64,000 nt of DNA from assembly GCF_921293095.1 (NCBI RefSeq), contig NC_060246.1:108976941-109040940 (forward strand). Direction: 5' to 3'. The stretch's first letter is position 1, and the number at the start of each line of letters is the position of its first letter. The notes beneath the pieces were generated by a model. That model had not been told where the DNA came from. It saw nothing but the letters and a program-made list of their open reading frames with translations, and searched no databases. The translations under genes were made by a program, and so were the position numbers. The stretch is from Ischnura elegans. Lineage: Eukaryota > Arthropoda > Insecta > Odonata > Coenagrionidae. Positions 5,952 to 35,607 of this stretch are shown here, piece by piece.

Positions 5952-5989
5952 ACTACACTTTGATCTTAGCCACAAGGCCGAGAAGCGAT
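5952..5989 (-). ncRNA. U2 snRNA 5' fragment, nt 1-38, upstream target of U-1
   Basis: On the minus strand this starts ATCGCTTCTCGGCCTT, continues TGGCTAAGATC and ends AAAGTGTAGT. That is the invariant 5' end of U2 snRNA as remembered from fly and human. It stops after GUAGU of the branch-point-recognition element GUAGUA, exactly where U-1 begins. It is either the 5' half of a real U2 gene split by U-1, or a U2 pseudogene fragment. No functional U2 can be made here because the 3' half is absent next to U-1. Confidence 0.9.
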
Positions 5990-7057
5990 AATTAATCAAT
6001 TTTTCCGGGGTTCCGGGACGGTTTTTCGGGTATTTTGCGTGATGAGGTCGGATGCTGCGGCGGTGGTGTGCGGCGAGAGTTTTTGAGGCGAGGAACGGTC
6101 TCGGAATGGCGAATTTTAGGCGTGAGAACGTGGAAAAATACGCACGAAAGTGTTTGGTGGAGACTCCGGGAGTTTTGGTGTCGTCGGCGGGTCCGGGAGA
6201 GTCGTAGGAGCGTCGCGGACGTAACGGACGCGGGCCGTTTTCCGGACCTTCGGTGCCATCTGTCGTGTGGGATCGCAGCGTCCTTCGTGGGCCGTCCTGC
6301 GTTCGCTTCCCGGGGGAATGCTTTCGTCCCGGGAAATTCCCAAAGAAATTGCGAAAAATGCCCTTTCCGGGGAATTTCCGGGACTCGAAAAAGTCACTCA
6401 CAATCGTCCAGAAAACGTCAATAAAAACGATGAGAGAGCATTATCCTACTCACTCGAGTCATGTATTTTCTTTCGAAATGCTAAAATTCCGGGGAATCAG
6501 ACTTAAAACTGCTTAAAAAGTCCTCTCTGGGGAATCTGATTCAAAGCTGCTTAAAAAGTCCTCTCCGGGGACTGGAAAAAATTTCCAAAATCGTCAGCAA
6601 TGGCTGGAATACTGGAAGAAGGATGTTTTTGCAAAAAATATCGGCATGAAATGCAACTCTCCGAAAGAAAGCAATTCACGGTTTGATTGGACACCTGTTT
6701 TTCGTCATCATTCGCGACCCTCATTTTTTTACACTTGAAGTAAACAGAGTGCGTGCCGACGCCATCGTCGGCCTCCGGGTCGAACTATCCGCCAGCAGCA
6801 CGGCCCCCGCGAAATTCGACTGCGCTTTCAGAGGAAGGCGTTCATTGTTGGCGACGACTCCTTAGTAACGCGGATGAATGCTGCGTGTATGTCACCAGAA
6901 GCGTGATGCGGCCGTCTTGTCTCGTCATATTCGCAAGAAAAACTTGGAATTCTCGAGGAAACCTACGCTTGGCGGCCATTTTCCATGTTCATTCGATCCG
7001 GTAAATATTTGGAAGTTATTTTATAAATAGTGCATTCACCTAATTTCCGTGTGAAAA
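5990..7057. other. Non-coding flank upstream of the U2 fragment
   Basis: No convincing gene. On the minus strand 5990-6100 would be the promoter region of the disrupted U2 gene, but I could not recognise a proximal sequence element. The stretch is rich in TTCCGGGG-like motifs (6006-6370). A 38-bp tandem duplication lies at 6491-6566. At 6970-6985 the sequence GGCGGCCATTTTCC resembles a YY1-type promoter motif, so a host promoter cannot be excluded around 6700-7050. Confidence 0.4.
6491..6566. repeat. Two 38-bp tandem repeats
   Basis: Two adjacent units begin GGGGAATC and share the core CTGCTTAAAAAGTCCTCTC. Their 5' halves differ at several bases, and a third partial start GGGGACTGG follows. 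Origin unknown. Confidence 0.85.
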
Positions 7058-7133
7058 GTGTGGGGAAACTGTTTCGACAGCTTTCCGGAACGTGTTCTTA
7101 AAAGTGAAAAATCTCATCATCATTCCCACGACG
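7058..7133. repeat. Repeat R, copy 1, left part (interrupted by Transib)
   Basis: Sequence from GTGTGGGGAAACTG through TTTCCGGAACGTGTTC to the Transib target CGACG. It resumes at 9582-9615 on the other side of the Transib. A second uninterrupted copy lies at 9882-10002. R ends in GTGCCCAT, directly against the 3' tails of U-5 (copy 1) and B-1 (copy 2). It is a repeated flank of these retrotransposons, of unknown identity. Confidence 0.75.
7129..7133. repeat. Transib target-site duplication, left
   Basis: CGACG directly before the CACAGTG terminus. Its twin is at 9577-9581. The uninterrupted R copy has CGACA at the matching place (about 9953-9957). Confidence 0.85.
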
Positions 7134-9576
7134 CACAGTGGGATAGAATCGAAAAAAGCTGGCCAAAAGTCGCTGGAGTCTAAAGAATTGGTAAATTAAC
7201 GAAACTTTTTACAAATTGTGTATTGTAAAAATACAATTGAACTTATTTAGGATTATGTAGGCCACAATATTGTTTAGAAGGGCGATAACAATTAAAATAG
7301 GCAAATGTGATGCGGGAAGCAAACTCTACAGGGGAATGCCTACCTTCTGCAATGGAAATATCAAGGGAAAAATAGAATTTTTCTGCCGTTGAAGCTGTCA
7401 AAGCTTGTGCATAAGGTAAATTTTGAGTCCATAAGGTTAAATTTTCAGTTGAAACTTTTCTGGTATGTTTTTCCCGATATGTTCTGATCTTCTAACTTCC
7501 TCGTGTCGGGCTCCCAATGTCTCCTCGGAAAGCTGTCCAATAGGAAGAATGTCATGTTTCACAATTCCCGCTCCATGTATTAAAACTTTGTGAATAGTCC
7601 CCTCTCTATTTGCCAAGACCACATTATGTAAATCTTGACTAGTCACTTTCGTTGTATCCATAACTGAGCAACTACTCTGTGAACGTCATTCGGCAATTCG
7701 ACTAGGAATACTGAAAGGAGACTGACTCGGCTAGAAATGAGCGAGCCAATCGCATAGAAGGTTTATTTCGGGAAAACTAAATTTCTATATTGGAAATATT
7801 TGCACGTGTTCAAAGTAAAAGAACAAATTTGGGTACACAAATGGGCAGCCGACGAGTGAAAAGGGCTTGGGGAGCGCGCGAACCGTTAGGTTTATTACCG
7901 TCTGCACGCGGCCTCCGCGCGAAGGCTCAAGGGTAAAACCGTCATAAAAGGGTACATACCATAAAGGCACCGCATATAATTAGTAGTTGAGTGCAGTGCA
8001 ATGCAATCTACTCTCCATGGTTTCTAACAAATTTATTATCAAACACTACTATATGAAATAAAAAAATATCAGGTAATCAGTTCCATCGACAGCCCAACTA
8101 TCATCAGTCATACATGGGTAGCAAAAAAAATTGCGGACTCCAACTAGGAATCCATTTTAAAAATGAAAATTTTGCTTACCATTAGCACTGCTTCTCACCA
8201 CAATGGAGAGTAAAATCGTTTTCGATGAATGAGGAGTACACTTATTGTAGTCACAACGAAACGGAGGCGGGTGCAAGGAGGCTTTGCTTCCCAGGTACAA
8301 CTATATCCTCCTTTGAAGTGCTTCTAACGTTGACAGATCAATCCAGTGTTATAACACAGCGCAGTCACTTACAGTGGATGTTCACTCGACACTCTCTCTA
8401 GGACAACTGATGCATGTGGTAGGCAAAAACAACCGGAAAATCCCTAGGACACTAACTGAGAATTCCATTTGTCGGAACAAGTGGCGGAAAGGGTCGGCAA
8501 GAGGCAAAAACGAGTAAAAAGCATAACTTGGGATAGCTACCGATGAATTAGGGGAAGTAGAAAAGAGTCATTACCGGCAAGGTTGTAAAACCAGCATTGT
8601 CGGGCCAGTAAGTACGGAGGGTCGCAAATCCTCAACCAGCCGGCGCGGGCGCCTGCCGCTGCACGTGCATGACCTTCCCTAAACCCCTCGACCGCAGCCT
8701 GCCCATGATGCTTTAGGGAAATCCGAAATTCTGAGAAAATCCTTTCAAATATATTTTAGCCATAACTCTGCCGAGGACCCTTCCAATGACCTAATCGTAT
8801 AATTGCCAGTCACGAATTTAGCAAGAAACTGTTATCTGCGCCAAGATGTACGTTGAATTTAGCCATTTATAGTATAATATACAAAAATCTAGGTGATTAT
8901 TATTCATAAAATATGTATTCAAGTAACTAATGTCATTGAACAGGAATTCCGTCGTCTTTATGCACGGATATCATATCCTTTCCTCGCTTAGTCCCGCCGC
9001 CGTTTCGTGGCCGCCACAGTGGTCCGAGTGGCCGGGGTGGATTCACATAAATATGGTTGTTAAAATTAGGATCGCAAGTTATCGCAAAAACTGCATTCTG
9101 GACATTGTTCTATATGCTTTTGTCTATCTCACAGTATAAATAACTCCGTGTATTTCGATGTACATATAAACGATAATTACCGTTAAACATAAAATTTCAT
9201 GGAAAATCAACACAGTTTTTGAAAAATTATAAAAATATTAATTAACAAGTAAAATCAAACAAAAACTGTCTCTATTCATTAAATGAAGATCAATTTTATG
9301 GATAAAAATACTTTGAAACCAATATTCTTAACAACGACTCTGTAATGTAGCCACAAATTTAGCTATTTTCAACGGAAAAAATCAGGTCACTAAAAGCTCT
9401 CTGACATGCTCTACTTTGACCAGCTGTAAAAATTATATTAACGCATTCTATGCTCTGTATGGCACCCTATCTTAAAGAGTACATGCTTAATAATAAATAT
9501 CAACTGTTTTTGGTTGATTTGCGCTAACTTCATTTTTCGACTTTTGGCCAGCTTTTTTCGGTTTTGGCCCACTGTG
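7134..9576. mobile_element. Transib-type DNA transposon, degraded, 2443 bp
   Basis: The ends are 39-bp terminal inverted repeats (7134-7172 and 9538-9576) with about 4 mismatches. Both start CACAGTGGG and share GAAAAAAGCTGGCCAAAAG. The flanks are a perfect 5-bp duplication CGACG (7129-7133 and 9577-9581). A CACAGTG start and GC-rich 5-bp duplications are established hallmarks of Transib, whose ends resemble V(D)J recombination signals. The interior is AT-rich with no long ORF. A short transposase-like remnant lies on the minus strand at 7437-7661. The copy is non-autonomous. Confidence 0.82.
7437..7661 (-). pseudogene. Possible Transib transposase remnant
   Basis: A 74-residue frame with the pattern HKVLIHGAGIV, then LPIGQLSEETLGARH, then an E/R-rich tail. 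It lies inside the Transib inverted repeats and reads inward. The pattern recalls the C-terminal part of transposase-derived proteins common in arthropods, but I cannot confirm that it is Transib rather than another family. No catalytic residues can be assigned. Confidence 0.4.
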
Positions 9577-9581
9577 CGACG
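9577..9581. repeat. Transib target-site duplication, right
   Basis: CGACG directly after the CACTGTG terminus, matching 7129-7133. Confidence 0.85.
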
Positions 9582-9615
9582 TAAGTCACGCTTGGCATGC
9601 GAGTCTCGTGCCCAT
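9582..9615. repeat. Repeat R, copy 1, right part
   Basis: TAAGTCACGCTTGGCATGC then GAGTCTCGTGCCCAT. It matches 9958-10002 apart from a roughly 12-base gap, and directly adjoins the U-5 tail. Confidence 0.75.
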
Positions 9616-9870
9616 ATTAAAACGTTTATTGAATATTTCTTTCAGATACAAGGAAAGCTCAAAACATGAGATAAGTACAGATCCCCCCACCTTTCATGGG
9701 GAGGGATGATACAAGAGGGCGCCCCACCAAGTGTGGGCCGCCCTTGTAATGGCATTGGTTCTATTACAATGTATTTTGTGGCCCCTCACTTAGGGGCCAC
9801 TTGTCACCGCCGGCCTCGAAGTGAAGCCGGTCTGGAATTGTTTTTGTCCATTGTCCACTTCTCGTCATAT
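9616..9870 (-). mobile_element. U-5: 5'-truncated family U tail with 3' hairpin module
   Basis: This carries the family U 3' end only. On the minus strand it shows a GC hairpin around CCGGCTTC, GTGGCCCC...GGGGCCAC, the GGGCGGCCC...GGGCGCCC hairpin and then a short tail ending CAATAAACGTTTTAAT. It is about 85% similar to the U-2 tail by eye. The 3' flank is repeat R (ATGGGCACGAGACTCG), not U2. Its 5' edge is approximate, near a short TG repeat. Confidence 0.8.
9680..9836 (-). ncRNA. Family U 3'-UTR structured module, U-5 copy
   Basis: CCCCACCTTTCATGGGG, GGGCGCCCCAC/GTGGGCCGCCC, GTGGCCCCT/AGGGGCCAC and CCGGCCTC/GAAGCCGG. Confidence 0.7.
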
Positions 9871-9881
9871 TCTGTGTGTGT

Positions 9882-10002
9882 GTGTGGGGAAACTGTTCGA
9901 CAGCTTTCCGGAACGTGTTCTTAAGACTGCAAAAATTTCATAATCATTCGCACGACATAAGTCGCGTTCGGCGTGCAACGCAGCCTCGAGTCCCGTGCCC
10001 AT
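9882..10002. repeat. Repeat R, copy 2 (uninterrupted)
   Basis: Matches 7058-7133 joined to 9582-9615, and so represents the pre-insertion site of the Transib. It ends ...CTCGAGTCCCGTGCCCAT and is followed at once by the B-1 3' tail. Confidence 0.75.
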
Positions 10003-10912
10003 ACTGATTAAAATGTTTATTGCACATATTCTCAATAGTACATGCCAGATTCATACAATATCATATTTTGCTTGATTTACAATTGTTTTCAAAAATAATG
10101 ATCTTGCTTTACAATTATTTTTTAAAGAATTATTTATACAATGTGTTTTAAAATTTTAATTCATTCTTCTATACCAAATTCCTTCTCCTATCTGTCCTGC
10201 TCGCCGTACTAAAAAGAGAAATAATATTTATATTAAAATTTCGCGGAAAAATCAAGTTTCAGGGAAAAATTATAAAGAAAACGGAAAATATAAAGGCTAA
10301 AATCCCATCCCCGATGCAGGCGACCAAGTATTGACATTCCGGAAAGCCGAAAAAATTTAATGTGAAAAGAGAATAAAGATTTTTTGAATTTCTACCCGGA
10401 ATGCTGATTAAACTAAAAAAGAATAAAATAAAAAAAAAGGTGCAATCTTAAAATGACTGCTTGGTATGATAAAACAGAGGGCCCCTCGATCCCGCTTAAC
10501 CCAAGGATAATGTAAGCTGCACGGGAACCACTCTTCAGACGCCCACCAATAAATTAAGTAAAATGTGGCGCTGGCTCCATAAAAAGTTAAAATTGGAAAT
10601 AAATAATTTAATAAAATACCCCCGGAACGGGGTAAAGGCCGTTTTATCCCGTTCCCGTTTAGCCGTAATACCCCGTTTAAAGGCCGGGAGCAATAAAAGT
10701 TTAAAATGCCAGCGCCTAAAAACTCAATCCCGGTGTTAAAGGCCGGGATAACAGAAAATGTTTGGGAGAAAAAGTAAGTAAAACGGACTGCCGGTGTAAA
10801 GTGCCGGCAGTCTAAAAAAGATAAAAATTCCCAAACATAACAAAAAAGACAAAAAAGGGACATACACAAATAAATATAATAAATAAATAACACAGGGTTT
10901 TTAAAATTTTTA
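10003..10912 (-). promoter_or_regulatory. B-1 3' UTR with repeated mini-hairpins
   Basis: Shared with B-2 (32738-33560). It contains several small hairpins of one design, a GC stem closed by a GTGTAAAG-like loop: CTGCCGG...CCGGCAG (about 10788-10812), CCCGGTGTTAAAGGCCGGG (about 10730-10750) and relatives at 10618-10690. A conserved stretch near 10480-10550 and the terminal CTCGCCGTACTAAAAAGAG...AATAAACATTTT segment complete it. In this retrotransposon class the 3' UTR is bound by the RT to start target-primed synthesis. That these hairpins serve that role is inferred. Confidence 0.6.
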
Positions 10913-10929
10913 TTAAAAGGTGGGGTCGT

Positions 10930-11817
10930 CGTCATCACTAGAGTTTCGAGGAGAGAGATTCGTTCCCAGACCGGGTGGGAGCGCTGGGGTAGTAGGATAA
11001 ACAATTTTGCCCATGACGTGCGAAACATAAATATCCCGCGACCATCGGATTGCGACGGAGATCATAAAGGGCGATCCTGCCGACGTTTCGTTTTGCAATT
11101 CCGAGGTCGCGGAAGACCACCCAATTTTGGGGATACCAAGCTCCCAGCGCCCCGACCACGAGTGCACTCAAAGAAACCGTGTACCCGCGATCGGCAAGTT
11201 GTTGCGCGATGCCTGAATATTTTTGAAATTTAGCTTGCCTGGCGACATCCAAGGCAGTTTCCGGTTTTCAAAGGGCACAGTGACGTCAACAATGACGATT
11301 TTTCTACGTCCCTCATCGACGATGACGAGATCGGGCCTGAGGGCAGAATCGATCATAGGCGGAGTGCGATCGACACGGATTTCCACGCCTTCGCGAGGAA
11401 CCTCTCCGGCGAGTCGATGCAGGATAGTATCGTGTCTGCCCCGCCACGCGCTCGAATGCACTTGACAGTGATCCAAGACGTGCGGAAGGGTTTCGCTCTG
11501 CCACCCACATCTCCTACACCGGAAGTCATCTCTAGGACCCCACCTCGTCGCCGCGTTCAGAGGGACCACACCTAAACGTGCCCTGTGCACGAAGCGCCAG
11601 TCACAAAATCTGGTATTTGCGCCCGTGCGGAGGAAGTGATTAGAAAACGGTTTGCATTCGAATGCCTTGCCCTGATCAGGTTTAGCCAAAAGACGGGCAA
11701 GGTATTGATGCCGTACTGCATCGCGCAACAATTTACCCAACATGCGCGCTTTGTTTGGAGGAACTCGAATGACGTCAACCTCTTTGCCGTGGGCTGGAAT
11801 GACGATCTCAAACTCCC
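10930..11817 (-). pseudogene. B-1 C-terminal zinc knuckle and restriction-like endonuclease
   Basis: Visible in order: RFCDWRFVHRARLGVVPLN, the knuckle CRRCGWQSETLPHVLDHC (Cx2C, H, C), then the PD-(D/E)xK-type nuclease core ALRPDLVIVDE ... KIVIVDVTVPFEN, which supplies the PD and Asp of the fold. This enzyme nicks target DNA to prime reverse transcription. The nuclease continues in a second frame (11252-10938: QKYSGIAQQLADRGY, LVVGALGAW), so a frameshift lies near 11240. Further C-terminal blocks shift again. Not functional. Confidence 0.82.
11803..11817. repeat. C-1 target-site duplication, left
   Basis: CGATCTCAAACTCCC, repeated at 17271-17285. The undisturbed site is in B-2 at about 33949-33963. 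Confidence 0.92.
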
Positions 11818-12437
11818 CGCACGGGGGGAAGAGAGTAATCTTTTCCTTTGGGGAGCCGCGCCCCCACGGACCCGAGCCCACCGAGGAGACAAGCTCGTTT
11901 AAAAACCCCGTCGTTCGCTCGGATAGTGTCCAGACAGCATGTGACTCTGCTGTTCTGAGTAGCCGTAACATCTGGCGTCCAGAATCACCCACGTGTTTGC
12001 CGTGCGTGAAGACCCGTACAAGGGGGAGAAGGGGATCCTGGTGGGTGAGTTCTCCGGCACCCAGCTGGGCGTCGGAAACCCGGTATGGGCCGGAATTCAA
12101 TACCCCACTTTGGCCCTGGATTCCCCGAAAAACGGGCGGCCGAGAAGAGCCCAGCTCGGTCAATCGGCTCCTGGCGGCTAGGGAGCTTGGCGGCTCCTTC
12201 CGAGCGTACGCCAGGACGGGTTAGTGCTGGAGATATGGGGGTCTCCGTAGGGCGGCCGAAGGCGTGTGGGTTCGGAGGGCCCCCGCGCTGGAGGTTCTAA
12301 CCCGAAAGAGGCCTCCTATCGAAGGTTCCTATATCCCTTGGGTAGCCCTGGCGACCACACCGGATCTCGGTGTGGCGTCCCGAATGTGTGGCTCCGTTGT
12401 GGGTGGGGAGCCCAGGGGACGAATTTTGTACGAGCGT
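11818..12437 (+). promoter_or_regulatory. C-1 5' UTR, strongly conserved with C-2
   Basis: The leader before ORF1 is GC-rich and nearly identical to the C-2 leader (43276-43894). One compared 60-base stretch (12061-12120 against 43520-43579) differs at 3 positions, whereas most of the ORFs are far more diverged. It contains a small hairpin CGACCACACCGG...GGTGTGGCG around 12351-12380. I-type elements usually hold an internal promoter here. The exact element is not visible. Confidence 0.7.
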
Positions 12438-13583
12438 ATGGATAATAACTTCTTACCTCCAACAAAAAGATCCCGTCCGGAAACGAATGGGGGAGAAATG
12501 AAAAACAATAAATTTCTTATAATGAAATGTCAGAAAGAAGGGGAAACACTAAAAAAAGTGTCCCCTTTCTTAATTCGTAAAGTCCTCTCTGCTACGGTCC
12601 CAGGTGATATAAAATCGGCCAAAAAGTTACGGGATGGATCCCTTTTGATCGAAACGGCAAACAAGGCGCAAAGTGAGAAGGTTCTCAACATGAAACTGAT
12701 GCACGACATCCCAGTGACAGTGGAGGTTCACCGAACCCTGAACACTTGTCGGGGAGTTATAAGCCACTTCGACCTACTATATGTGGACGCTGACGAAATC
12801 AAACAAGAGATGGCATCCCAGGGAGTGTGCGACGCTCGTCGGATGACAACGAAACGGAATGGAGAAATAGTAAACACCACCTCTGTAGTGCTTACATTTA
12901 CGTGTGACCGGCTCCCTGACAAAGTGTTCATAGGGTATGAATCAGTTCCCGTGCGACCATTCATACCAGCCCCGATCCGCTGTTTCCAGTGCCAAAAATT
13001 CGGCCACATCGCAACGCGATGTGAGGGCAAGGCCACCTGCCCGCGCTGCGGCAAGGACAAGCACGATGGGGACAAATGTGCTGAAGCGGCCTGCTGCGTG
13101 AATTGCGAGGGTACGCACGCGGCTTATTCTCGCGATTGCCCGAAAATGAAAGAGGAACGGAAGATTATGGAAATTAAAACTGTGGATAAAATATCTTACC
13201 TAGAGGCAAGGAAAAAGTTCAAAGCCCTTAGTGCCCCCTCTTTCTCGCGTTCCTTTGCCGCAATCGCCTCCGCTCCAGTTAAGAAGTGCACCATTTCTAC
13301 ACAGACGGAACCTGAAAAGCAGATAGATGTATTAAAAAAAACGAATGCGAGTAACAGTAGCAACAATAAAAAAAACACCCCTAACACCTCCGTAGTGTCT
13401 CCCAAAAATACAGCAAAGAAAACAACCAGAAAACCTGACCAGCGAGAGAAAACTCCCTCTCCTGGTCCCTCCGGCAAAGGTATGGAACCGATGCAGGAGG
13501 ACATAGACGAAGATCTCTGTATTTCGGACACAGAGATCGAAAAAGTCAGGAATAAGGGAAGGAAAAGTCGCTTGAAGCGATGA
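12438..13583 (+). CDS. C-1 ORF1: Gag-like nucleic-acid-binding protein
   Basis: The chosen start is the ATG at 12438 (MDNNFLPPTKRSRPE). C-2 has a matching ATG at 43895 (MESEILPPPKRSRPD), so the longer upstream frame is rejected. The 381-residue product has an RRM-like middle (TVEVHRTLNTCRGVISHFDL), then three knuckles: CFQCQKFGHIATRC, CPRCGKDKHDGDKC and CCVNCEGTHAAYSRDC. A Lys/Ser-rich tail and acidic end follow. It would coat the element RNA. The frame is open to its stop; 91 bases separate it from ORF2. Confidence 0.88.
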   Translation: MDNNFLPPTKRSRPETNGGEMKNNKFLIMKCQKEGETLKKVSPFLIRKVLSATVPGDIKSAKKLRDGSLLIETANKAQSEKVLNMKLMHDIPVTVEVHRTLNTCRGVISHFDLLYVDADEIKQEMASQGVCDARRMTTKRNGEIVNTTSVVLTFTCDRLPDKVFIGYESVPVRPFIPAPIRCFQCQKFGHIATRCEGKATCPRCGKDKHDGDKCAEAACCVNCEGTHAAYSRDCPKMKEERKIMEIKTVDKISYLEARKKFKALSAPSFSRSFAAIASAPVKKCTISTQTEPEKQIDVLKKTNASNSSNNKKNTPNTSVVSPKNTAKKTTRKPDQREKTPSPGPSGKGMEPMQEDIDEDLCISDTEIEKVRNKGRKSRLKR

Positions 13584-13674
13584 TTCCACAGATTTCCGGG
13601 CTAATGCTGCTCCAAGTTTAAATATTTACATCCTTTTTTTCTGTTTTTATCTTTCACCCTTTTTAAACCTTTTT

Positions 13675-16600
13675 ATGGCTTTTATATTACAATGGAATTG
13701 TAATGGATTTTATCGGCATAAGGAGGAGCTGGCTGTTTTAATAAATGATTTTAACCCTTTATGTATATGTCTACAAGAAACGCATTTTAAATCGACAGAC
13801 AAGGGAATTTTAAAGGGATATAGTGTGACTAGGTTGGATGACTTGAGTGGGCGAAGAGCCCAAGGTGGTGTAGCAATAGCGGTCCGGGATACCCTACACA
13901 CCTCCCGTGTGCGGCTAACCACCCCATTCCAGGCTGTGGCCGTCACCGTCCATGCACCCATGGAGGTAACGCTGTGCAACGTGTACCTCCCGGAAGATGC
14001 TCCGGTAAATGACAATAACCTTCAAGCCCTCATACGTCAATTGCCGTGACCCTATATTTTATTGGGCGACTTAAACGCTCATGATCCTCTGTGGGGAGGC
14101 CATTCTGCCCAACGCAACAGAAGGGGACGGATTTTAAGCAGCTTTTTCCGAGATTTTAACCTCTTTTTATTGAACAATGGCGAGAGGACACGCTTTAACT
14201 CCTTTAACGGAGAATATTCCTCCATTGATTTGTGCTTATGCACGAGCAGCATTTTTACAAGACTGAAACTGTCTGTCCATACGGATCTCTGTGGTAGTGA
14301 CCACTTCCCGATTTTAATCAAATCTGACGAGATTAACAATACGAAATTTATCCGCGAGGGCAACTGGATTGTCCACAAAGCCGACTGGTCTATTTTTAAA
14401 AATTCTTTTAATTTCACGTACGATGCTCTTCGGGGCGGAACAAAGAACGTTGAGGTGCTAACCGCTAGCATAGTGGACGCAGCGAAACGTAGTGTTCCCT
14501 TATCTAAGGGCGCAATTCGTCGACCAGCGGTACCATGGTGGAATGAGGAATGCGCCGAAGCTATTAAGAAACGGAAACGTGCCCTCCGTATTTTTAATAA
14601 GTTTCCAACTGTCTCTAATCTTGCCTCATTTCGACGACTCAGAGCAAAGGCTCGACTAATTATAAAGGAGTCAAAGAAGGCCTCCTGGATAAATTATGTA
14701 TCCTCCATCAACCACAGGACTCCACTTGCACAGGTATGGCGTAAGGTGAGGAGCATATCGGGTAGCAGCCAGCATCTAGGTATATCCTTCCTAGAAGTCG
14801 AAGGAAAGGTTATCACTTCTCCAGCTGCGATAGGGAACGTATTCGCCCAATTACTCGCCAAAGTGAGCAGCGACGAATGCTATGAACCTTCTTTTGCGAT
14901 CCTCAAGAAAAGGCTCGAGAACGTCCCTATATCCTTTATGGAGCCTAAAACAACGGCAGACTACAATATGCCATTTACCATTTGGGAGCTGAAATCTGCC
15001 ATCCATGACTCCCACGACACGTCCCCAGGACCCGACGAGATCCACAATGCCTTCCTCCGAAATCTATCGGAATCGGCGTTGCTGGAAATCCTTGAAACTT
15101 TTAATCAGCTCTGGGCCAATGGGGATTTTCCTCCGTCCTGGCGGGAGTCCGTCATTGTTCCCATCCCAAAACATGGAAAAGACCGAGCTGATCCGAATTC
15201 TTACCGGCCGATTTCTCTCACCAGCTGCCTGTGCAAGTTAATGGAGCGAATGGTAAATCGACGTCTCATTTGGTGGCTGGAGCGTCGAAAACTCCTCTCT
15301 AGGATACAATGCGGATTCAGACGGAACCGTTCCACAATGGACCACTTGGTTAGAATTGAAAATTTCATCCAAGAAGCGATTGCGATTGTCATTGCGATCA
15401 ACGACATAGATCACTGCATCAAGGAGCCAGTGTTAGGGTCACTGTTTGTGGATGATCTCGCGATTTTCTGCAGATCATCTAGGGTCGTGAATGCATCGCG
15501 TATGGCGCAACTCACCATCAATAAACTTCACAAATGGACCCAAAATAACGGCTTCCTTTTCTCTTTGGAGAAAACAAAGTGCGTTCACTTTTCTCGCACT
15601 CGGGGCGTCCATGTAAATCCCACGTTACACCTAGGTGGTAGAAACCTCCCATTTGTGGAATTAGTCCGTTTTCTGGGGATGACCCTCGACCACAAACTCA
15701 ACTGGAAGGAGCACATTAATTCTGTCAAGGTAAACTGTTTGAAGTCTTTGAACATTTCAAAGTTTTTAAGCCACGCATCTTGGGGAGCAGACCGCACCAC
15801 CTTAATTTTACTTAACCGCACACTGGTGCGGTCGAAATTAGACTACGGCTCATTCGTGTATGCGTCCGCTCGCGAGACGTATTTGAGAGCACTTAATTCA
15901 GTGCACAACGCAGGTCTGCGACTATGCACTGGGGCGTTTAGGACCAGCCCGATTCCCAGTATATATACCGACGCAGGCGAGCCTCCTCTATGCTACCGAA
16001 GGACCTGGCTTCTTTGTAGCTACGTTTCCAAAATTTTAGCAATCACGAGTCACCCATGTTATAGTTTACTTTTTAAACCCCGTTCTATTAATGTTTTTAA
16101 CCGAAGGACTAAAGCAACCAGACCAGTAAGCGTTCGTTTTAACGATTTTATTCGCGGATGCGAATTCACGCTACCTGAAGTGTATCCTGTTTCATTCTCG
16201 GAACCCCCTTGGATCACTCCCACTCCGGTGGTGAATATTCTTTCACGATCTCGACCGAAGTCTTCCACAACTCCCTCGGAGTACCAGCGTTTGTTTGCCA
16301 TGTTCCGATGGAATCACCCCAACCTTACCCCCGTTTACACTGACGGTTCGAAAGATAACTCTGCTTGTGCATGTGCAGTGTTCTCCCCTATCCACGGGAA
16401 CATCAGAGCAAAGCTTCACCCGATGTGCAGTGTGTACACGGCGGAGCTTTATGCCATAAGGACAGCTCTAGAAGCCCTAGGTGACCACGGCGGCTCCTTT
16501 GTCATATGCACTGACTCCAGGAGCTCGCTACAAGCCATCTCTGGCTTCTCACCCGTGCACCCGATCGTGCAAGAAATACACTCTCTCCTGCTGACCCTTT

Positions 16601-17139
16601 CGAGAAAGGGTTTGAATATCCATTTTCTGTGGGTACCGGGACATGAGGGGATAGCCGGGAATGAGATAGCAGACGCTATGGCCAAGGAAGCTCTGAATAA
16701 CGAAGTTCTTGTCTCAACGCTGGTTCCCCACGAGGATTTACGAGCATCTCTAAGAAACGTGGTATTTGGAAAATGGAGGGAGTCATGGAGGATTCTAAAT
16801 AACAACAAGCTCCGTGGCATCAAGGACATGGTAGCAGCGTGGCCCTCCTCAGCTCGTAGTAATCGGAGAGAGGAAGTAGTACTTACACGATTGAGGATAG
16901 GGCACAGCCCCCTGACCCATGCGTATCTCTTTACTGAAGAGAAGGAACCTCCCCAATGTAGGGATTGTAAATGTCCATTAAGTATTAGACACATCATGCT
17001 AGATTGTGTTAAGTACCGCGAAGCGCGAAGACGAAATAATCTAGGGGGAGACCTAAAAACCCTTTTAGGAGACCACCCTACCAACTTAATCTGTACATTT
17101 CGGTTTCTCAGAGAAATAAACATTTTTAATGAAGTCTAA
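13675..17139 (+). pseudogene. C-1 ORF2: endonuclease-RT-RNase H, one stop and an RT deletion
   Basis: The ATG at 13675 begins MAFILQWNCNG. Domains: APE-type endonuclease (LQETHF, LLGDLNAHDPLWG, GSDHFPILI), RT (SPGPDEIHNAF, YRPISLTSCLCKLMERM, motif C LFVDDLAIF), RNase H (VYTDGSKD, TAELYAI, CTDSRSSL, WVPGHEGIAGNEIADAMA) and a C-terminal CRDCKCPLSIRHIMLDC knuckle. A TGA at 14047-14049 interrupts the endonuclease; the frame is unchanged on both sides. Near 15375-15405 the protein jumps from NFIQEA to IAINDI. C-2 has about 80 more residues there, including motif A (FFDVEKAYD) and motif B (GIPQGSVLS), so the RT is catalytically dead. Confidence 0.9.
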
Positions 17140-17270
17140 TTATGTACACTTTCAACGAAGACATCAGATGCAGTAGATTACTTTATACATAACTTTTGTA
17201 ATTAAATAGCACAGAAGTGGTGCAAAATGACCTTGCCGTCGACGCACCCTAAATCCAAATACTACTACTA
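17140..17270 (+). other. C-1 3' UTR and triplet tail
   Basis: A short UTR ending GTCGACGCACCCTAAATCC and TACTACTACTA. C-2 ends with a similar GCCGACGCACCCTAT and a longer (ACT)n tract. Confidence 0.8.
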
Positions 17271-17285
17271 CGATCTCAAACTCCC
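17271..17285. repeat. C-1 target-site duplication, right
   Basis: CGATCTCAAACTCCC, identical to 11803-11817. Confidence 0.92.
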
Positions 17286-17286
17286 T

Positions 17287-17684
17287 CCTCACGTCACTCC
17301 AGTTCCACGACATTCCAATTTTGACAGCCAAGCGGCTGGACGCCATTCTCGCGTCTGACCACAAAGAAGCGACGTCGAAACGATATCGTCCAAACTCCGC
17401 GCGCATGCTTCTGGAAAGGTACTCTGCAATATGTCTCTTCTCTGGTTCCCGCCGGGTTCTCGTCTTTACGGTCTTATAAATTCCTCCATCCACCACCGCT
17501 CTTACCCATAGTTCCCTGCAAGAGAGAAGGCGAAAGGCATGAGACACTGTAAAATATCGACCGGGTCCGCGGTCGGAAAGACGCCCGCGCCCCCCTTCCG
17601 CGGATCCAGGTGGCAAATCTCCCACGAGGCTCTCATGGGGAAGTACATCCAATCCTTCAGTGCCCTCTTAACCCGTTTATCCAA
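17287..17684 (-). pseudogene. B-1 RT thumb and linker region
   Basis: Contains DKRVKRALKDWMYFPMRASW, GGAGVFPTADP, then VDGGIYKTVKTRTRREPE and WSDARMASSRLAVKIG. All of these are also in B-2 (34310-33905), so this is conserved coding sequence between RT and endonuclease. It is split over frames. Confidence 0.75.
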
Positions 17685-17714
17685 AATTTTAAGAGGGCCC
17701 TTCCTAACCCTACC

Positions 17715-19309
17715 TCACCGGAGGTTGAAATCAAGTTTTGTCAATAAAAACATGTTCAGAGCCTCTATTTTCTGCCAGGGCGCCAACAACGACGCGTCCA
17801 GCGCGTTGATGTTTTCAATAATTTGTTCGATTAGACGCCCTGGCGTTTGCTCTACTTTATACCCCGTGGGGATGCCTAAATAGTCGTATCCCTCGCCCTC
17901 CCTCATTACAGCTGGAGTCCCACCCCCAAGACGAAACTCCGTCGCTCTCACTTGGCCCCCGGCGACATGGAACGTCGCACACTTGCGGGGGTTGAATTTT
18001 AACCCGCTCCATGCCGCGATCCGGTCGGCAAGATCCAGCAACTTCATCATCCCGTCTCGGTTCCTGGACACCAGAGCTACGTCGTCTGCATAGGCAAGGA
18101 CGGTGACTGGAATGCCGTTGACCCGATAGCCTACATTATCCTTAAATGCAGCAATGCTGCGAACCAAGTATTCCATGCATAAATTAAATAGAATTGGGCT
18201 AAGCGGGCATCCTTGTTTTTTACTCCCGCTTTAAGCGGTATAGTCTGCGTCTCACCATCGATCGTCCTCACGGTCGTGCGCGCCCCCTCGTACATTTCTT
18301 TAATTATGTTTATTAATTTTTGGGGGACGCCTAAAGCCATAATTGATCTAAAAATGTGACCGTGAGGCACCGAACCAAAAGCATTGGACAAATCTAAGAA
18401 GGAGACGCAGACTTCGCCACGTTTCCTGTGGACCTCTTCAAGAATATTTTGTAAAATGAAATTATGTTCGAAATATCCTTCATGTAGGCCGAACCCCTTC
18501 TGCTCTATCGACACCCGGCCTGATCTTTCGGCCCACCCACTAATCCTATCTGCTAAAACAGCTGCATATAATTTTGCAAGGGTGGGCCCTAATGTTAATG
18601 GGCGCCAGTTCTCTATGACATCCCTGGCGCCCTTCTTATGTATCAACACTGTCCGGGTGTCTTTCCATCTATCGGGTATTCGGCCACAATCGAAACAATA
18701 TTGGAAGATGGTCCTCAGAATGTGGCTTCCTCTATCCGCATTGCGAAGATCGATATAGGTAATGTTGTCCTTCCCTGGAGCAGTATTGCTCATTCGGCCC
18801 AGCCTCTTCCAAATTTCATTAGATGTAATTTTTCTCAATAAATTTCCTTCTTCCTGAAGGCTGGGCATATCAATATTTACCATATTTAAAGGATTGGGAA
18901 GGACTCTAAAACTGTCATTATTAAAAGTTTCATTAAAATAGTTAAAAATAGCCTCCTTATCGATTTCGCAATGCGGAGAGGGGCCCTGCAATACTTGGTC
19001 TATGGCACGTTTCTTATTATTTCTAAACAATTGTTTTATTTTCCTGGCTTTTTCTTTAACTACTTCGTGCCATTCTGCATCGGGTGTAAAAACACGACGA
19101 GCAGGTACGTTACCAATTCCGATGCCATTCCCTTCCCCGTTACCGTCCAAATCCGGGTGCTCCCCCTCCTCCTCTTCTAGGGGGGGGGTGTCGCGGGATT
19201 CTCTCTTCTTCCTCCCCCCCTCTCTCCTTCTGCCAACACCTCCTTCTCTCCGGGCCGGCTTCGAATCCGTGATGCTCTTGCACCAGGCGGCGACGGCCTC
19301 CTCGAACAC
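17715..19309 (-). pseudogene. B-1 reverse transcriptase
   Basis: RT blocks in order: NTAPGKDNITYIDLR, ENWRPLTLGPTLAKLYA, EQKGFGLHEGYFEHNF, motif A SFLDLSNAFGSVPHGH, motif B beginning KAGV, motif C LAYADDVALV. A one-base insertion in an A-run near 18222-18228 shifts the frame inside motif B (B-2 keeps the usual GVKQGCP order there). The region before it (residues 1-90 of the 18131-19309 frame) is a charged linker. It is homologous to the RT of family U but clearly a separate family. Confidence 0.85.
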
Positions 19310-20405
19310 TCCCCACCCTTCCTTGCAGGCCGCCTCTATCCTCTGGATCCACCGCCGTTGATCCTATGGCAGCCCGTCATAGACCACTGCCACCTGTCTT
19401 ACGGGAGCGCCATCGATGTTTGCAGGCATCTGTCCACCCCGCTCGTCGTCTCCTCCCTGGGGCCGGTTTGCGAGGTTTTTAGTTCGCGCCGGCCCCGCAC
19501 GTCGTCGCCTTCGGGGTGGAGCCCTTGTCGGGGGCGGGCTGTTTGAATCCGTCGTCTCCTCGCCCGCCCCATCTCCGTCTCCCTGCAGATGGCAGTCATC
19601 GGACAGGCTGCCGCTACGCCCCGCTGGTGGACTGCGGGGCTGTTCCTCCGCCCCCACCTCTTCTCCGCGACCGCTTTCTTCGCTTACCCGCCCCGGGATA
19701 CTTAAAATTTGGGGCGGGCTCGCAGTTACGGCGGCCGCGTTGTGTGGTGGGCTCTCTCTTGGCGGTGGACTCTGCGCCGGCGCACTCCCTTCTCTTGCCG
19801 TCCCTCGCTTGGGTTGGCGTCGCGCCGCCCGCCGGCCTGCTCTTCTTGATGCGGGTGGGGAGACTGATGTCGTCGCCGCCGCCGCCTCAACGTCGTCACC
19901 TGCCGGACCCGGAATTTTCCTCGTTGATCTTAGCTGAGGTGGTGGCTCCTCATCCATCGACGTAGGGGGAGCACCTTCGGCCACCGTGGTTACACTATTT
20001 TCGAGGATACAAACATTCATATTTACTTCAGGTTCTTCAACCATTACAATTTCTAATAAATCGCCAGCATCAACATTCATACTCTCATCCACACTTATCA
20101 CACGCACGCTCTCATTCACGCCCACATCTGGTCCATTGCCATCATTTTCTCCCACGATGACCACATTTTCCGTCCCTTCCCTCCCCCTCGGCCAGGACTA
20201 CGGGATCTGGTGGTGTCCCCACGCAAGCATAAACATGTAGTTTACAAGATTTCAAGCTATTAAACCAACACAAAATCAGGATGACTCCTAACATAATGCT
20301 TCTTAAGATCATGATGAGTCCGGTATATCCCGTAGGTCCTGTGCCTACGATGATTATGAGGGGTAAAACAGTGCTTGCATTCGAAACTGTTGCCGAGGGG
20401 GACCT
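19310..20405 (-). pseudogene. B-1 N-terminal region: C2H2 finger and linker
   Basis: The finger reads FECKHCFTPHNHRRHRTYGIYRTHHDLKKHYVRSH, given here as pieces: C-x2-C in FECKHC, and paired His in THHDLKKHY and VRSH. B-4 starts with an ATG and MEEVIIQVPLGDSFECKHC, so the family start lies just upstream of the finger. B-1 itself has no ATG there. Downstream blocks are CKLHVYACVGTPPDPV, an acidic stretch with repeated DES/NVDAGD, and a Pro/Arg-rich segment. N-terminal zinc fingers bind target DNA in R2-like proteins, so target recognition is the likely role. Frames shift at least twice. Confidence 0.75.
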
Positions 20406-20428
20406 CGAGCCTCGAGTCCCGTGCCCAT
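20406..20428 (-). repeat. R-like 3' flank between U-2 and B-1
   Basis: On the minus strand ATGGGCACGGGACTCGAGGC. The same string begins the 3' flank of B-1 (about 9983-10002), and a close variant flanks U-5. Confidence 0.7.
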
Positions 20429-20494
20429 AAATTGTCTTTGTTTTGTATATTGCCAGATACATTGCCAATTTCAAAACACGAATTTGGTACAAAT

Positions 20495-21866: not shown

Positions 21867-21899
<33 letters not shown>
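21867..21899. repeat. (AT)n microsatellite
   Basis: About 14 AT units interrupted near the end by ACATATAT. It lies in the U-2 3' UTR. Confidence 0.95.
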
Positions 21900-21940
21900 T
21901 AAACATGGCTCCTGGCGTCTCGGGCGGTGAGTGGACGTCC

Positions 21941-23314: not shown

Positions 23315-24605
23315 GGTGAGCGCATCCTTGCGGGCCGGCAGCGGGACGTAGCCACCCCCTCCCCGGCTCCTGGAGGGAGATCATTTCCCGCGCCGCGCGG
23401 GTCGGGAGACTCATCCACTTCTTCACCATTCGCTGCATCTCCTTGTCGAAGTCGTGGATGGCCTTCTTCGGGACAGGGACGATTCGGAGGGGAAATTCGA
23501 GACGCGGTGTCAGGAAGACGTGCACCGCGTCTATCTTCTGCCACGGCGCCAAGTCCGATTCGTCGAGCCGCCGGAGATCCTCGAGGATGGAGTCGAGCGT
23601 CGTGGCGGGCGCCGCGTTGACTTTCAGGCCGATCGGTGCCCCCAGGTAGGTGTATGAGTCACCTACGCCGAGCGACCTGATGGGAGAGCCGCAGATGGAA
23701 AAGGGGGTGCGTTGAACACCCCTGGAGCGCTGTGGCGTCGTGCATCGCCAGTCCACGTGTAGCGATGCACACTTCCCCGGATTGAAGGTTAAGCCACAGC
23801 ACTCGGCGGCCCTTCCCGCGACGTCCAGAAGCGCCGCGAGGAATTCCGCACTCCCCCCACGAGGACTAAATCGTCCGCGTACGCCAAGACTTTGACGCAC
23901 GCAGTCCCCATGGGAAAGCCTTGGAGAGTGCGATCCTCCGAAATCGCTCGCAGTACAGGCTCCAGCGCCAGGTTAAACAGTAGGGGAAAGGGGGTCCCCC
24001 TGGCGAACACCACTCGTCACGGTGATCGAATCCGTGACTCCACCCGCAGCAGCTACCGTCATCGTGGAACCACGGAGCATGTCCTCGATCACCGTGACGC
24101 ACTTCACTGGGAGGCCGATCTCGCGGAGCACTCGCAGGATGTGGTCATGGGGTACCGACGGAAAAGCGTCGTCCAAGTCGAGCCACGCGACGGCCACCTG
24201 TCCGAAACTCGCCCTCGCGTGCTCTATGGCCGACTGGAGCACAAAGTTGTGGTCCATGCAGCCCTCCGTGGCGGGGATGAAGCCCTTTTGGGTAGGGAAG
24301 GAAAGGCGCTTCCCACGGAGGGCCCAGGGGAGCATCCGGTCCGCCAGCACGCCCATGAACACTTTCGCCAACGTGTTCGCCAATGAGATCGGCCTCCAAT
24401 TTCGCACTTCGTGCTCACTCCCCCCCTTGTGCAGCAGGGTGACCCGCGTCTCCTTCCACTGCGGGGGCACCCTCCCCAACTCCACACACCGGTTGAAAAT
24501 GGCCGCCAGCACCTCGCCATTAGAGTCAACAAACCGGTATGCAGAGTAGGGCACGCCGTCAGGTCCCGGAGCCGACGCCCGCGTCCTCTTCAGCCGGTCG
24601 ATCAC
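23190..24605 (-). pseudogene. U-2 reverse transcriptase, frameshifted
   Basis: Frames 24605-23973 and 23900-23190 together cover the RT: APGPDGVPYSAYR, WRPISLANTLAKVF, motif A AWLDLDDAFPSVPH, motif B SGVRQGDPLSP, motif C AYADDLVLVGG, then NPGKCASLHVDW. Single-base differences relative to U-1 near 23990 and 23855 break the frame, and a further loss in the segment before DRLKRTRA comes from a shortened G-run at 24708-24714 (one base fewer than U-1). All catalytic motifs are readable. Confidence 0.83.
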
Positions 24606-26350
24606 CTTTTCCGGTGTGATCGGAGAGGTGATCTCCCGCTGGCCGCTCCCTCGACGTCCTGGTGGGAACTCCGGGATGAAAGCCGGCCATGGCTGCGTCG
24701 GATCGTAGGGGGGGAGGGACGGGTGAAGTGGGCCTTGAGGGAAGCCAGGGGGATTTCACAAAGCTCTTCGGTCGGTGCGCAAATCCGCCGGAAAGCTCTT
24801 CCTTTCCCGCTACGGTAGAGGTTTTGGAGGTCTGCAGCGGGCAAAGGGCGGGGGTTGGGCCGGGGGGTCACCGTGGGGAGCCTTGGAGGGGGGCTGAACG
24901 CAGCGGCTGCCGCTGTGACCTCGCTTACGACGGCAAAGAGTGAGTTTGCCGTCTGGGGGTCACGCAGCCACTTCTCCTGTCTTTCACTCAACTCCCCTTC
25001 CCCTTCGTCACCTAAGGGTGTGGGTATGGGCACCAACACTGGGGCTGGAGGGCCGGAGGACTCACTACCCACTGCTGGGGGGAGGCTTGGTACATCGGCG
25101 GAGGGGGGAAGGGGCCCGCCTGTGTCCACCGTTGGGCCTCCATCCCGTAGCGGATCGGCCACTCGGTCTCCTGCGGCCCCCAGGGATAATTGCCCCGGGC
25201 GTGTGGGGGCCAGGCCACTCGGGGCATCACGGGGGGCGGGGGGGGGGGGCGAACGGGAGCTCGCACATGAGTGGGAGGACTGTGTCGGCGGAACGCGGAA
25301 CTGCTCCCACGATGCACCGCGCATGTGGGACCTGCCGCGCTCCTCTTCCGGAAGGGGAATGTCAGAGATCGGACTAAGATCTCTGACGTGGCAGCGGGGG
25401 GTGAGGGGGGAGGGGAGGGAAGGGGAATACGGGACGAGGGACACTGCGGGATCCGCCATCGTGTACTCCGGGCCACGCACTTCGTCCGTGTCCGACACCG
25501 GAGCACACTCACTTGCCCCACACGCAACACTTGCGGAGGCAGATGGCTCGTCGCTCTGTGTGCCGACAGACCGATACCGCCACCTGTCCACCACCACAAA
25601 CCGCTGCGTGTTGTCACAATGTCTTGTCGGCGACAGCAGGCCGTCCGACAACGCCCCCTGGGGCGGTACCGATCCGTCCTCCAGGGAGCCACCATACAGG
25701 GGAGGGGAAACACGCGGCGACGCCGGGCTGTCCTGCGCTTAGTCTCGGCGCGGCTGCGCACCGTCCTCCGAGACGACACTCACACTCTCACACTCGCTCA
25801 CACGAGGCGACGCCAGGCCGTCCATCGCAGACGCAGCTGGGGATGACTGCGGAGCACTTGGAGTGGGAGAGACGCGGGAGGGGGAGGGAGATTGTGTCGG
25901 GAGGAACACAATCTCCGGGGATGATCCACGGACGCTAGGGCAACGTTCCGTGACACCAGGGGCCAGGGGGAGGGGGCGGGGCAAAACGAGGTCGTCGACA
26001 GGGGGGGCACTGTCAATGTCGACCCGGAGGTCGTCCGACGCTACACTCGCTTTGGCGGATCCCGAGGGAGCACTGTTGGGGGAGGGGAGGCGCACACGTG
26101 GGGAAGCGAGGAAGGCGGGAGAACGAATCGGGGCCGAGGCGAGGGCTTTTGGGTCCCACGAACCGCCACTCCACTCCTCTTCAAGCATCTTCCGCCACGA
26201 CCGGGTAATGCTCCCAGCAGAATCCATGGCGGGAAGCAGCGATGGAGAGTACTGGGAGTCGGGAGGGGCGTAGGGAACGTCACGCGGGCGATGCAATCCC
26301 CTCTCCTTCGCCTTCCGGCGGGTTCGTTGGGCGACGGGCGGTGTTGCCAT
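24602..26350 (-). pseudogene. U-2 N-terminal region
   Basis: ATG at 26350, MATPPVAQRTRRKAKERG as in U-1. A stop near 25739 (TAA for GAA) splits it; the same frame resumes through 25651-24602. Compared with U-1, the segment between EQFRV and the CASSR/SYSRASSR block is missing (about 560 bases, including the Arg-rich stretch). Unlike in U-1, the frame after the long C-run at 25231-25250 stays in register with the RT side, supporting a single long ORF as the ancestral layout. Confidence 0.75.
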
Positions 26351-27011
26351 ACTGGAAGGGCGGGAAGTTGGCGCGTCGGAAGCGCGTGGCGGGGAACCAC
26401 GCGGCGAGGGACCACGTGGCGGGGGACCAGGTGCTTAGCAACAGCCGAACGGTGCACGCTAGGTGCACCAAAGTTGCTCAAACTGTTGCTAACACTGACA
26501 CAAACACACACACACAAAACCACAACACTTTAACTCACGCGCAACTCAACATTTTCACGGAAAACTGCGCCAACTTCCGGCGCCACTGGCGGGCGCCACC
26601 GGCTGGTGGCGGGCGGTGGGCTGGTGGCGAGTCGAACTCGCGGCCAGTAGCACCAATGACTATCCGTTACTCCCTCCCAAAATGTCTCGGGTGTGCCGGC
26701 ACACACACCCGAGAAAAACGGCCCCCCAGAATTTTGGCGCCTTTTCCTAAAATCCGCAATTCGCGAGAAATCGGCACCAAAATCGGGCAGGGGGGGCTGG
26801 CACACACACTTGCACTGGACCAAAGTGGCCGGAATCTACGTCCCGCGGTTTGGGCACAACCGCGGTTTGTCAATTCCGGGCTTTGGCGGACGCACGAAGT
26901 CCGAGAATTGACGCGCTCTCTCCGGCCGGCAGGGCGGCAGGGATGAGCCGGGGAATCCCAGCGCCGTCGGGCTCTCGGGAGCGCTCCGTAGGCACGTCCG
27001 CTCTCTTCGAA
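26351..27011 (-). promoter_or_regulatory. U-2 5' UTR with conserved hairpins
   Basis: As in U-1: tandem ACCACGTGGCGGGG units (26390-26430), nested hairpin 26435-26492 (TAGCAACAG/CTGTTGCTA around GGTGCAC/GTGCACC) and the GTGTGCCGGCACAC palindrome (about 26690-26712). The first transcribed bases after U2 are TTCGAAGAGAGCGGACG, against CTCGAAGAGAGCGGACG in U-1. Confidence 0.6.
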
Positions 27012-27046
27012 ACTACACTCCGATCTCAGCCGTAAGGCCGAGGAGC
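27012..27046 (-). ncRNA. U2 snRNA 5' fragment, diverged, upstream target of U-2
   Basis: On the minus strand CTCCTCGGCCTTACGGCT then GAGATCGGAGTGTAGT. It is recognisable as U2 nt 5-38 with several changes, and ends at the same GTAGT as the U-1 flank. The change to GGAG before TGTAGT is shared with 27269-27304. It is fused on its 5' side to the B-3 tail. Confidence 0.78.
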
Positions 27047-27268
27047 CGTGCCCGTATAAAATGTTTATTGCACATATTCTGAAAAGTACATGCCAGATTT
27101 GTTACAATATCATAATTTGCTTGATTTACAATTGTTTTTGAAGTTATGATCTTGCTTTACAATATTTTTCAAAGTAATTATCTTATATAATGTGTTAACA
27201 AATTTTTAATTCATTCTTCTATACCAGTTTCCATCTCCTGTCTGTCCTGCTCGCCGTACTAAAAAGAG
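27047..27268 (-). mobile_element. B-3: family B 3' tail starting exactly at the U2 site
   Basis: A 222-base piece homologous to the last part of the B-1 3' UTR (10003-10224), from CTCTTTTTAGTACGGCGAG to TGTGCAATAAACATTTT. Its 5' edge is the U2 GTAGT junction at 27269, the same place where U-1 and U-2 start. It is either a 5'-truncated B insertion into U2, or a short U2-headed SINE-like unit using the B tail. Confidence 0.78.
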
Positions 27269-27304
27269 ACTACACTCCTATCTTAGCCATAAGGCTGAGG
27301 ACCG
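27269..27304 (-). ncRNA. U2 snRNA 5' fragment, upstream of B-3
   Basis: On the minus strand CCTCAGCCTTATGGCTAAG then ATAGGAGTGTAGT. It matches U2 nt 7-38 with a few substitutions and ends at GTAGT. Confidence 0.8.
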
Positions 27305-27599
27305 GAATTTTTTTGTGCCCGGCTCTGCGCTAGGATCAGTGCATAGAATTTGATGCACTTCTCTCTAGTGTTACATTATCCATCCTCTCCATGATTTTTC
27401 AAACGATGTTCTATAATTTTTCGAATTAGTTCATTTTCACGTTTTGCAGTCTATTTCCTTGGCATCATTTCCTGATTTCATTCCGATTTACGGATTTTTT
27501 TCTATTCCTTCCCCTTCTTCGAGTGCCCAATTTGTCTCCCAGTCACTCGGCACACGCATTGAAAAAAAAGCAATCGTTTTTTCAGTCTCCTCACACCCG
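27305..27599. other. Unassigned AT-rich stretch
   Basis: No gene, no clear similarity to the other elements in the window. It contains A/T runs and CTTCTCTCTAG-type pyrimidine tracts. Confidence 0.4.
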
Positions 27600-28331: not shown

Positions 28332-28333
28332 TA

Positions 28334-31862: not shown

Positions 31863-31864
31863 TA

Positions 31865-32034: not shown

Positions 32035-32039
32035 CGGAA

Positions 32040-34990: not shown

Positions 34991-35111
34991 CTTGCACGAT
35001 GCTGGTAAACCCTCCCCTCCTTCCCCTTCCGCGATATTATTTTTCCATCGTCTCCTCGAGCTTTACGGCAGTCAAATGTTCATATTTTTTATTATCATAT
35101 ATTTCGGTTAT
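34991..35111. other. Short spacer
   Basis: AT-rich, no similarity noticed to other parts of the window. Confidence 0.4.
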
Positions 35112-35587
35112 CACATTTATATCATATTGATAAAATTAGTTTATTTGATATATTGCCATATACATAGGTTCTTTCAGAACATCAATTATTTACATTTCCC
35201 CTTTTTGGGGTTTTTTTCTACAAAAGGGTGCCCCACAGAATGTGGGCAGCCCTAGTAAAAAGCATTAGCTATAATACATTAAGTGTTGTGGCCCCTCATT
35301 TAGGGACCACTTTTCTTTTTCCGGCGGTCTCGAAGTGAGGCCTGCCGTTCTTTACGTCATTTTTAGTCTCTGTTTATAGTTTTTGTTCATATTGTCTTTC
35401 ACTGCACACTGCACATCACATCCATGGGCCATTAATCCACTATGACACTCTTCACTATGGCAATTTGGGGAATTTGGGAGAATTTTTATTTCATAGTCGC
35501 CATATATATCCCATGGCATACATATATATAATAATAGTTTTCTTTATTTACATTGATATATTTATGTAGTGAAAATTTAGTGGCTGA
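35112..35587 (-). mobile_element. U-4: 5'-truncated family U tail behind a U2 remnant
   Basis: It starts at 35587 (CAGCCACTAAATTTTC), directly after the 20-base U2 fragment, and is colinear with part of the U-3 3' UTR (36435 downward: CAGCCACGTTTTCC). It includes the CCATATATATCCCATGG and CCACTATG motifs and the 3' hairpin module (35205-35345), and ends near AAATAAACTAATTTTATC. Confidence 0.78.
35205..35345 (-). ncRNA. Family U 3'-UTR structured module, U-4 copy
   Basis: Same three hairpins: GGGTGCCCCAC/GTGGGCAGCCC, GTGGCCCCT/AGGGACCAC and GGCGGTCTC/GAGGCCTGCC. A few pairs are lost, as expected of a dead copy. Confidence 0.65.
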
Positions 35588-35607
35588 TTAAGCTGATAAG
35601 AACAGAT
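35588..35607 (-). ncRNA. U2 snRNA fragment, nt 39-58, downstream target of U-3
   Basis: On the minus strand ATCTGTTCTTATCAGCTTAA, identical to the 20 bases of fly-type U2 that follow GTAGT. It immediately follows the U-3 tail (AATAAATACATTTT), so the 3' junction is GTAGT^ATCTG as predicted from the 5' junctions at 5952, 27012 and 27269. Confidence 0.9.

Follow-up and report, generated by a model that had tools for sequence, protein, structure and literature searches.

Decayed Utopia-type retrotransposons at a U2 snRNA insertion site and a putative U2-like second target in Ischnura elegans

We analyzed a 64,000-nt stretch of Ischnura elegans DNA (RefSeq assembly GCF_921293095.1, contig NC_060246.1, positions 108,976,941 to 109,040,940 of the forward strand; the whole stretch is called the window below). 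It carries a cluster of retrotransposons without long terminal repeats (non-LTR) that encode a restriction-like endonuclease (RLE) and adjoin sequences related to U2 small nuclear RNA (snRNA). The elements fall into at least two families, U and B, and none was found intact in the window: U-1 is cut at 1227, the coding region of U-2 is spread over several frames, a long interspersed nuclear element (LINE) interrupts B-1, and U-3 is in pieces. The elements and their flanks are as follows, with RT for reverse transcriptase, ORF for open reading frame, UTR for untranslated region, and T for a recurrent 3' flank.

1227-5951, minus: U-1, Utopia-type element, 5' end at 5951; DNA homology to U-2 ends at 1227, before the RLE CCHC and RPD motifs
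5952-5989, minus: F1, 5' flank of U-1; near-intact U2 nt 1-38, 35/37 to the Rfam U2 consensus
9577-9615, minus: T2, second T copy and 3' flank of U-t; broken by a DNA-transposon-like insert, resumes near 7133
9616-9844, minus: U-t, 5'-truncated U-family tail, 85% to the U-2 tail
9880-10002, minus: T1, target sequence on the 3' side of B-1; includes the right copy of the duplication (10002-9982)
10003-20407, minus: B-1, second Utopia-type family, ~5 kb; a plus-strand LINE (11818-17269) divides it; carries an N-terminal CCHH-like motif as well as RT and RLE
20408-20428, minus: 21-bp copy of T that follows U-2 on its 3' side and is also the left target-site duplication of B-1
20429-27011, minus: U-2, Utopia-type element of 6583 bp that retains both ends but has a disrupted reading frame; RLE ORF at 21941-23380
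27012-27049, minus: F2, 5' flank of U-2; diverged U2-like 38-mer, 30/38 to F1, 29/37 to the Rfam consensus
27050-27055, minus: T' (ACGGGC), adjoining B-t at its 3' end; from 27055 the match ACGGGCACG extends into F2
27056-27268, minus: B-t, 3' tail of a B element, truncated on its 5' side; 86.8% to the tail of B-1
27269-27306, minus: F3, 5' flank of B-t; diverged U2-like 38-mer, 29/38 to F1, 27/37 to the Rfam consensus
35132-35587, minus: U-4, 5'-truncated U-3-like tail directly after a 20-nt U2 piece; 3' boundary approximate
35588-35607, minus: U2 nt 39-58, exact match, 3' flank of U-3
35608-43126, minus: U-3, decayed Utopia-type element; RT piece 43126-42914, RT/RLE pieces 39385-37465, 3' UTR to 35608; 5' end not located

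The original prediction placed four independent junctions, those of U-1, U-2, U-3, and B-t (there called the B-3 tail), at one site in U2, and took each insertion to destroy the U2 copy it hits. All four junctions are present. GTGTAGT precedes U-1, U-2, and B-t, with the last U2-like base at 5952, 27012, and 27269; the elements themselves begin one base lower, at 5951, 27011, and 27268. The tail of U-3 is followed by ATCTGTTCTTATCAGCTTAA, the exact continuation of U2, and then by other sequence. The proposed site (GTAGT^ATCTG), the RLE domain, and the Utopia-type assignment all stand, in agreement with what Kojima and Jurka (2015; PMC4640811) describe. RLE elements of the Utopia kind at this U2 site are thus already known biology. 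The claim of four junctions in true U2 was overstated: true U2 is met at a single 3' junction and near-intact U2 at a single 5' junction, and the other two 5' junctions adjoin diverged U2-like sequence. Those last two insertions, U-2 and B-t, are also the two of T type with both flanks readable, and each has AYGGGCACGG, not ATCTG, on its 3' side. Destruction of a U2 gene is plausible for U-1 and U-3 only.

Next, we took the first 37 nt of F1 as the query for a scan of both strands of the window, at a cut-off of at least 24 matches. Three places alone were returned, F1, F2, and F3, and shuffled queries (n = 50) averaged 0.08 hits. The sole Rfam U2 match lies at 5989-5855 (33.6 bits against a gathering threshold of 46, E = 0.0051), of which only the first 38 nt are outside U-1; a small permissive Rfam search (up to E 5) gave no U2 match at F2 or F3. 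F2 and F3 differ from F1 at 8 and 9 of the 38 positions, respectively. Five of these substitutions, at positions 2, 7, 17, 29, and 30, are common to both (simulating independent, uniform mutation gives P = 4.5e-5), and because of them F2 and F3 look like copies of one U2-derived paralogue rather than ordinary U2. Folding z scores are -2.05 for F1, -1.85 for F2, and -1.46 for F3. The extra A in GATCAAAGTG and the GCTTAA in U2 presumably mark an arthropod-like invertebrate, which is a guess on our part.

We could place seven 3' ends in the window. U-3 is the only one that enters U2 (1/7), four enter T, which begins A(T/C)GGGCACG, and two enter neither. The flank entered by U-2, B-1, and U-t reads ATGGGCACG(G/A)GACTCG, and that entered by B-t reads ACGGGCACGG. 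All four occurrences of the motif A[TC]GGGCACG in the window coincide with the 3' end of an element, and the four tails, from two families, meet T at the identical base. With the insert in T2 excluded, the alignment of T1 to T2 spans ~110 nt. A sensitive search with T1 found only the junctions, the continuation of T2 at 7132-7058, and one weak 18-nt match at 7526-7543. The target of several insertions therefore appears, from these flanks, to have been a U2-like repeat whose sequence departs from that of U2 after the cut. The simplest reading would be a repeat, here named U2L, that reads GTGTAGT^AYGGGCACGG, although its contiguity is our inference; we propose GTGTAGTAYGGGCACGG as the query for recognizing U2L sites in the host genome.

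We also considered whether T is an RNA in its own right. A permissive Rfam search of 9840-10020 returned only a weak match to a long noncoding RNA (13.3 bits against 70). A structured Sm-class RNA was dropped as a candidate, with folding z scores of -0.11 for T1, -0.4 for T2, and -0.08 for F2 joined to T1; the T1 run AAATTTTTGC fails the stricter Sm-like pattern, and that pattern occurs 37 times in the window. A U2-derived short interspersed element was not noticed among the 12 top-ranked papers listed of 790 and of 610 in our literature searches. A narrow query combining U2 snRNA, satellite, pseudogene, and Utopia-type topics returned no paper, which is not proof of absence. The insert that breaks T2 (9576-7134, minus strand) is DNA-transposon-like and 2443 bp long, with terminal repeats that start CACAGTGGG and a 5-bp CGTCG duplication; we take it to resemble Transib.

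The flanks also record how the target was duplicated. B-1 has ATGGGCACGGGACTCGAGGCT on both sides, 21/21 identical (20428-20408 and 10002-9982), which is a 21-bp target duplication. Exactly 20 nt of U2 (35607-35588) separate the tail of U-3 from the start of homology to the truncated U-4; this piece is probably a 20-bp duplication made by U-4, with U-3 then inserted at the nick. U-2 and B-t have no target duplication. With a duplication beside B-1 and probably U-4 and none beside U-2 and B-t, one locus shows two outcomes, with duplications of 0 bp and of 20-21 bp. Such a mixture is relevant to the way in which the second strand is cleaved.

The coding regions support an RLE element for both families. 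The RT domain in the scanned ORFs is RVT_1 (Pfam), and R2 proteins outrank L1 among the PDB matches, a ranking that reflects similarity only. For the RT ORF of U-1 (1580-3565), the best PDB matches are R2 proteins at 5.4e-47, ahead of LINE-1 at 1e-30. A protein match of U-1 that runs down to 1043 was set aside, as homology to U-2 ends at 1227 and 1009-1218 matches another LINE. The C-terminal ORF of U-2 matches the endonuclease region and C-termini of R2 (PDB, 9.4e-15) and contains CX2C...H...C (CCHC) and RPD-X14-D motifs (CRVCGHAEETLPHVVNHC and RPDLVIWEVPRGVIHVID). B-1 matches R2 proteins in its RT (1.9e-24) and RLE (4.7e-05), with a CCHC finger and a PD...D arrangement at the C-terminus as in U-2, and its N-terminal CCHH-like motif is also found in another B copy at 32034. 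Pfam found no endonuclease/exonuclease domain of the apurinic endonuclease (APE) type in 11 distinct U and B ORFs, a scan outside which some broken pieces fall, and no Myb domain in the scanned N-terminal ORFs of U-1, U-2, and B-1. From these sequence features, we infer that the elements belong to Utopia by descent. Scans of viral_contigs and genome_contigs gave no relative of the U-1 RT ORF, and the exact U2 20-mer had no match in viral_contigs; the 16-mer GTGTAGTATGGGCACG had two there, which we take for chance.

The junctions would fit integration by target-primed reverse transcription. A bottom-strand nick made by the RLE just after GTGTAGT (U2 nt 38) would free a 3' end, which would prime copying of the 3' UTR of the element; priming at a nick between nt 38 and 39 would account for the shared junction base in T, which tails of both families reach although their own last bases vary. 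Some copies (U-1 and U-3) would have hit true U2 and others U2L, in which the first 38 nt are kept in diverged form and AYGGGCACGG follows the cut. A second-strand cut 20-21 bp downstream, for B-1 and probably U-4, would leave the 20-21-bp duplication. Recognition would act mainly through the upstream half of the site, because the 38 nt before the nick are common to U2 and, in diverged form, U2L, and only the first base or two agree after it.

Taken together, we put a probability of roughly 0.75 on a dead cluster of site-specific RLE elements of the Utopia kind, from at least two families, with both true U2 and U2L as targets. Several observations weigh against it. The 3' ends of U-4 and of a further B copy, B-3, both with approximate boundaries, enter neither U2 nor T, and the second copy of the 20-bp U2 duplication expected after U-4 is absent. 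The 5' flank of U-t is not U2-like and fits neither the duplication nor the no-duplication outcome. The joining of F to T depends on two insertions within one window, and the T' match beside F2 is only ~9-10 nt. F2 and F3 are 31/38 identical, hardly above the 30/38 between F1 and F2 (29/38 between F1 and F3), so the case for a paralogue rests on the five common substitutions. Furthermore, a simple pattern search of three frames over the first 2.4-2.6 kb of U-1 and U-2 detected no N-terminal zinc finger, and the Utopia assignment draws on similarity, site, and domains.

Could every target have been an ordinary U2 gene, with F2 and F3 decayed and T derived from later recombination or from tandem insertion into other elements? 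The locus is crowded with nested insertions, U-3 did enter true U2, F2 and F3 are each about as near to F1 as to each other, and Utopia in Nasonia sometimes inserts in tandem (PMC4640811). We nevertheless regard this as unlikely, given that the junction with T falls on one and the same base in four tails from two families, that F2 and F3 have their five substitutions in common, and that T1 and T2 align over ~110 nt when the T1 search found otherwise only the one weak match. The same substitutions, present beside family U in F2 and beside family B in F3, argue against a distinctly unlikely alternative in which F2 and F3 are leaders borne by the elements, RNA from a U2 promoter carrying U2 nt 1-38 to a target T that is not U2. 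F2 does start at about U2 nt 1, and the T-like stretch just upstream (27055) looks like a short duplication, yet that stretch falls well short of 20-21 nt, and F3 adjoins a 5'-truncated element, B-t, for which no leader is possible.

The third alternative concerns the elements instead of the target, namely that they belong to another RLE clade (R2, R4, HERO, or NeSL) and reached U2 independently. The PDB matches of U and B are R2 proteins (also L1 for the RT), and therefore such matches are unable to separate the RLE clades. Two points make this very unlikely. In the text of Kojima and Jurka that we consulted (PMC4640811), U2 nt 38/39 is the Utopia site among RLE elements, with the Ciona element YURE in U2-derived satellites, and the lack of Myb in the scanned N-terminal ORFs corresponds to the usage in excerpts of a 2026 study (PMC13188248), where R2-like elements without a Myb domain are named Utopia.

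Returning to a cluster with two kinds of target, it is possible, although we lean against it, that the host's U2-derived U2L served as a decoy and took more Utopia insertions here than U2 itself. If true, the endonuclease would read mainly the upstream half of its site, and a non-functional U2 copy would be a safe haven that helps explain how an element survives on a low-copy essential gene. The U2 look-alike repeat as a target may be a new detail.

Other mobile elements surround and interrupt the cluster. The LINE inserted in B-1 has endonuclease, RT, and RNase H domains and a 16-bp duplication (GGGAGTTTGAGATCGT), and a second copy related to it begins near 43274. Between the pieces of U-3 lies a transposase ORF of 505 aa (40306-41823, minus; Pfam DDE_Tnp_1_7, 7.2e-82), which we take to be of the piggyBac type, as well as a Twister-P1-like ribozyme match (39874-39820, minus; 46.9 bits, below the gathering threshold of 67.2). 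R2 carries a ribozyme at its 5' end; none of the five matches of an Rfam search of the window (up to E 1) was a ribozyme at the 5' end of U-1 or U-2. Two adjacent LINE-like copies, ~66% identical, occupy 50758-58723 (minus), with an endonuclease domain in one at 57064-58089, and a third piece of them lies at 1-1218 on the plus strand. A Pao-type LTR retrotransposon polyprotein (60444-63998, minus; Peptidase_A17, 5.3e-51) runs off the window.

Of the known systems, R2 provides the nearest solved relatives of the U and B RT and RLE, but it targets 28S ribosomal RNA genes and differs from elements that lack Myb in the scanned ORFs and are flanked by U2, U2-like, or other sequence. Keno has the same U2 3' flank as Utopia (PMC4640811), with an APE-type endonuclease where U and B have an RLE. 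Utopia itself is a group of RLE elements with insertions that follow U2 nt 38, described from arthropods (many of them), nematodes, reptiles, oomycetes, and others, with occasional tandems in Nasonia (PMC4640811), and the cluster resembles it in endonuclease, site, and disrupted U2 copies. One to three N-terminal zinc fingers are a Utopia feature; a CCHH-like motif occurs in B-1 and the B copy at 32034, and none was found by pattern in U-1 or U-2. According to that paper, the Utopia target duplication is 20 bp in reptiles and none in arthropods, unlike the 21 bp found here, and 4/7 of the placed 3' flanks here are sequence of the putative U2-like paralogue rather than of U2. The same source calls a low-copy gene such as U2 a seemingly poor survival strategy as a target (PMC4640811), and a U2-like repeat hit at this nick as an alternative would give that puzzle a concrete answer, testable within a single genome. 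A precedent for such a target is YURE, a relative that resides in U2-derived satellites of Ciona (U2_sat; PMC4640811), again an RLE element with a U2-derived repeat as its target.

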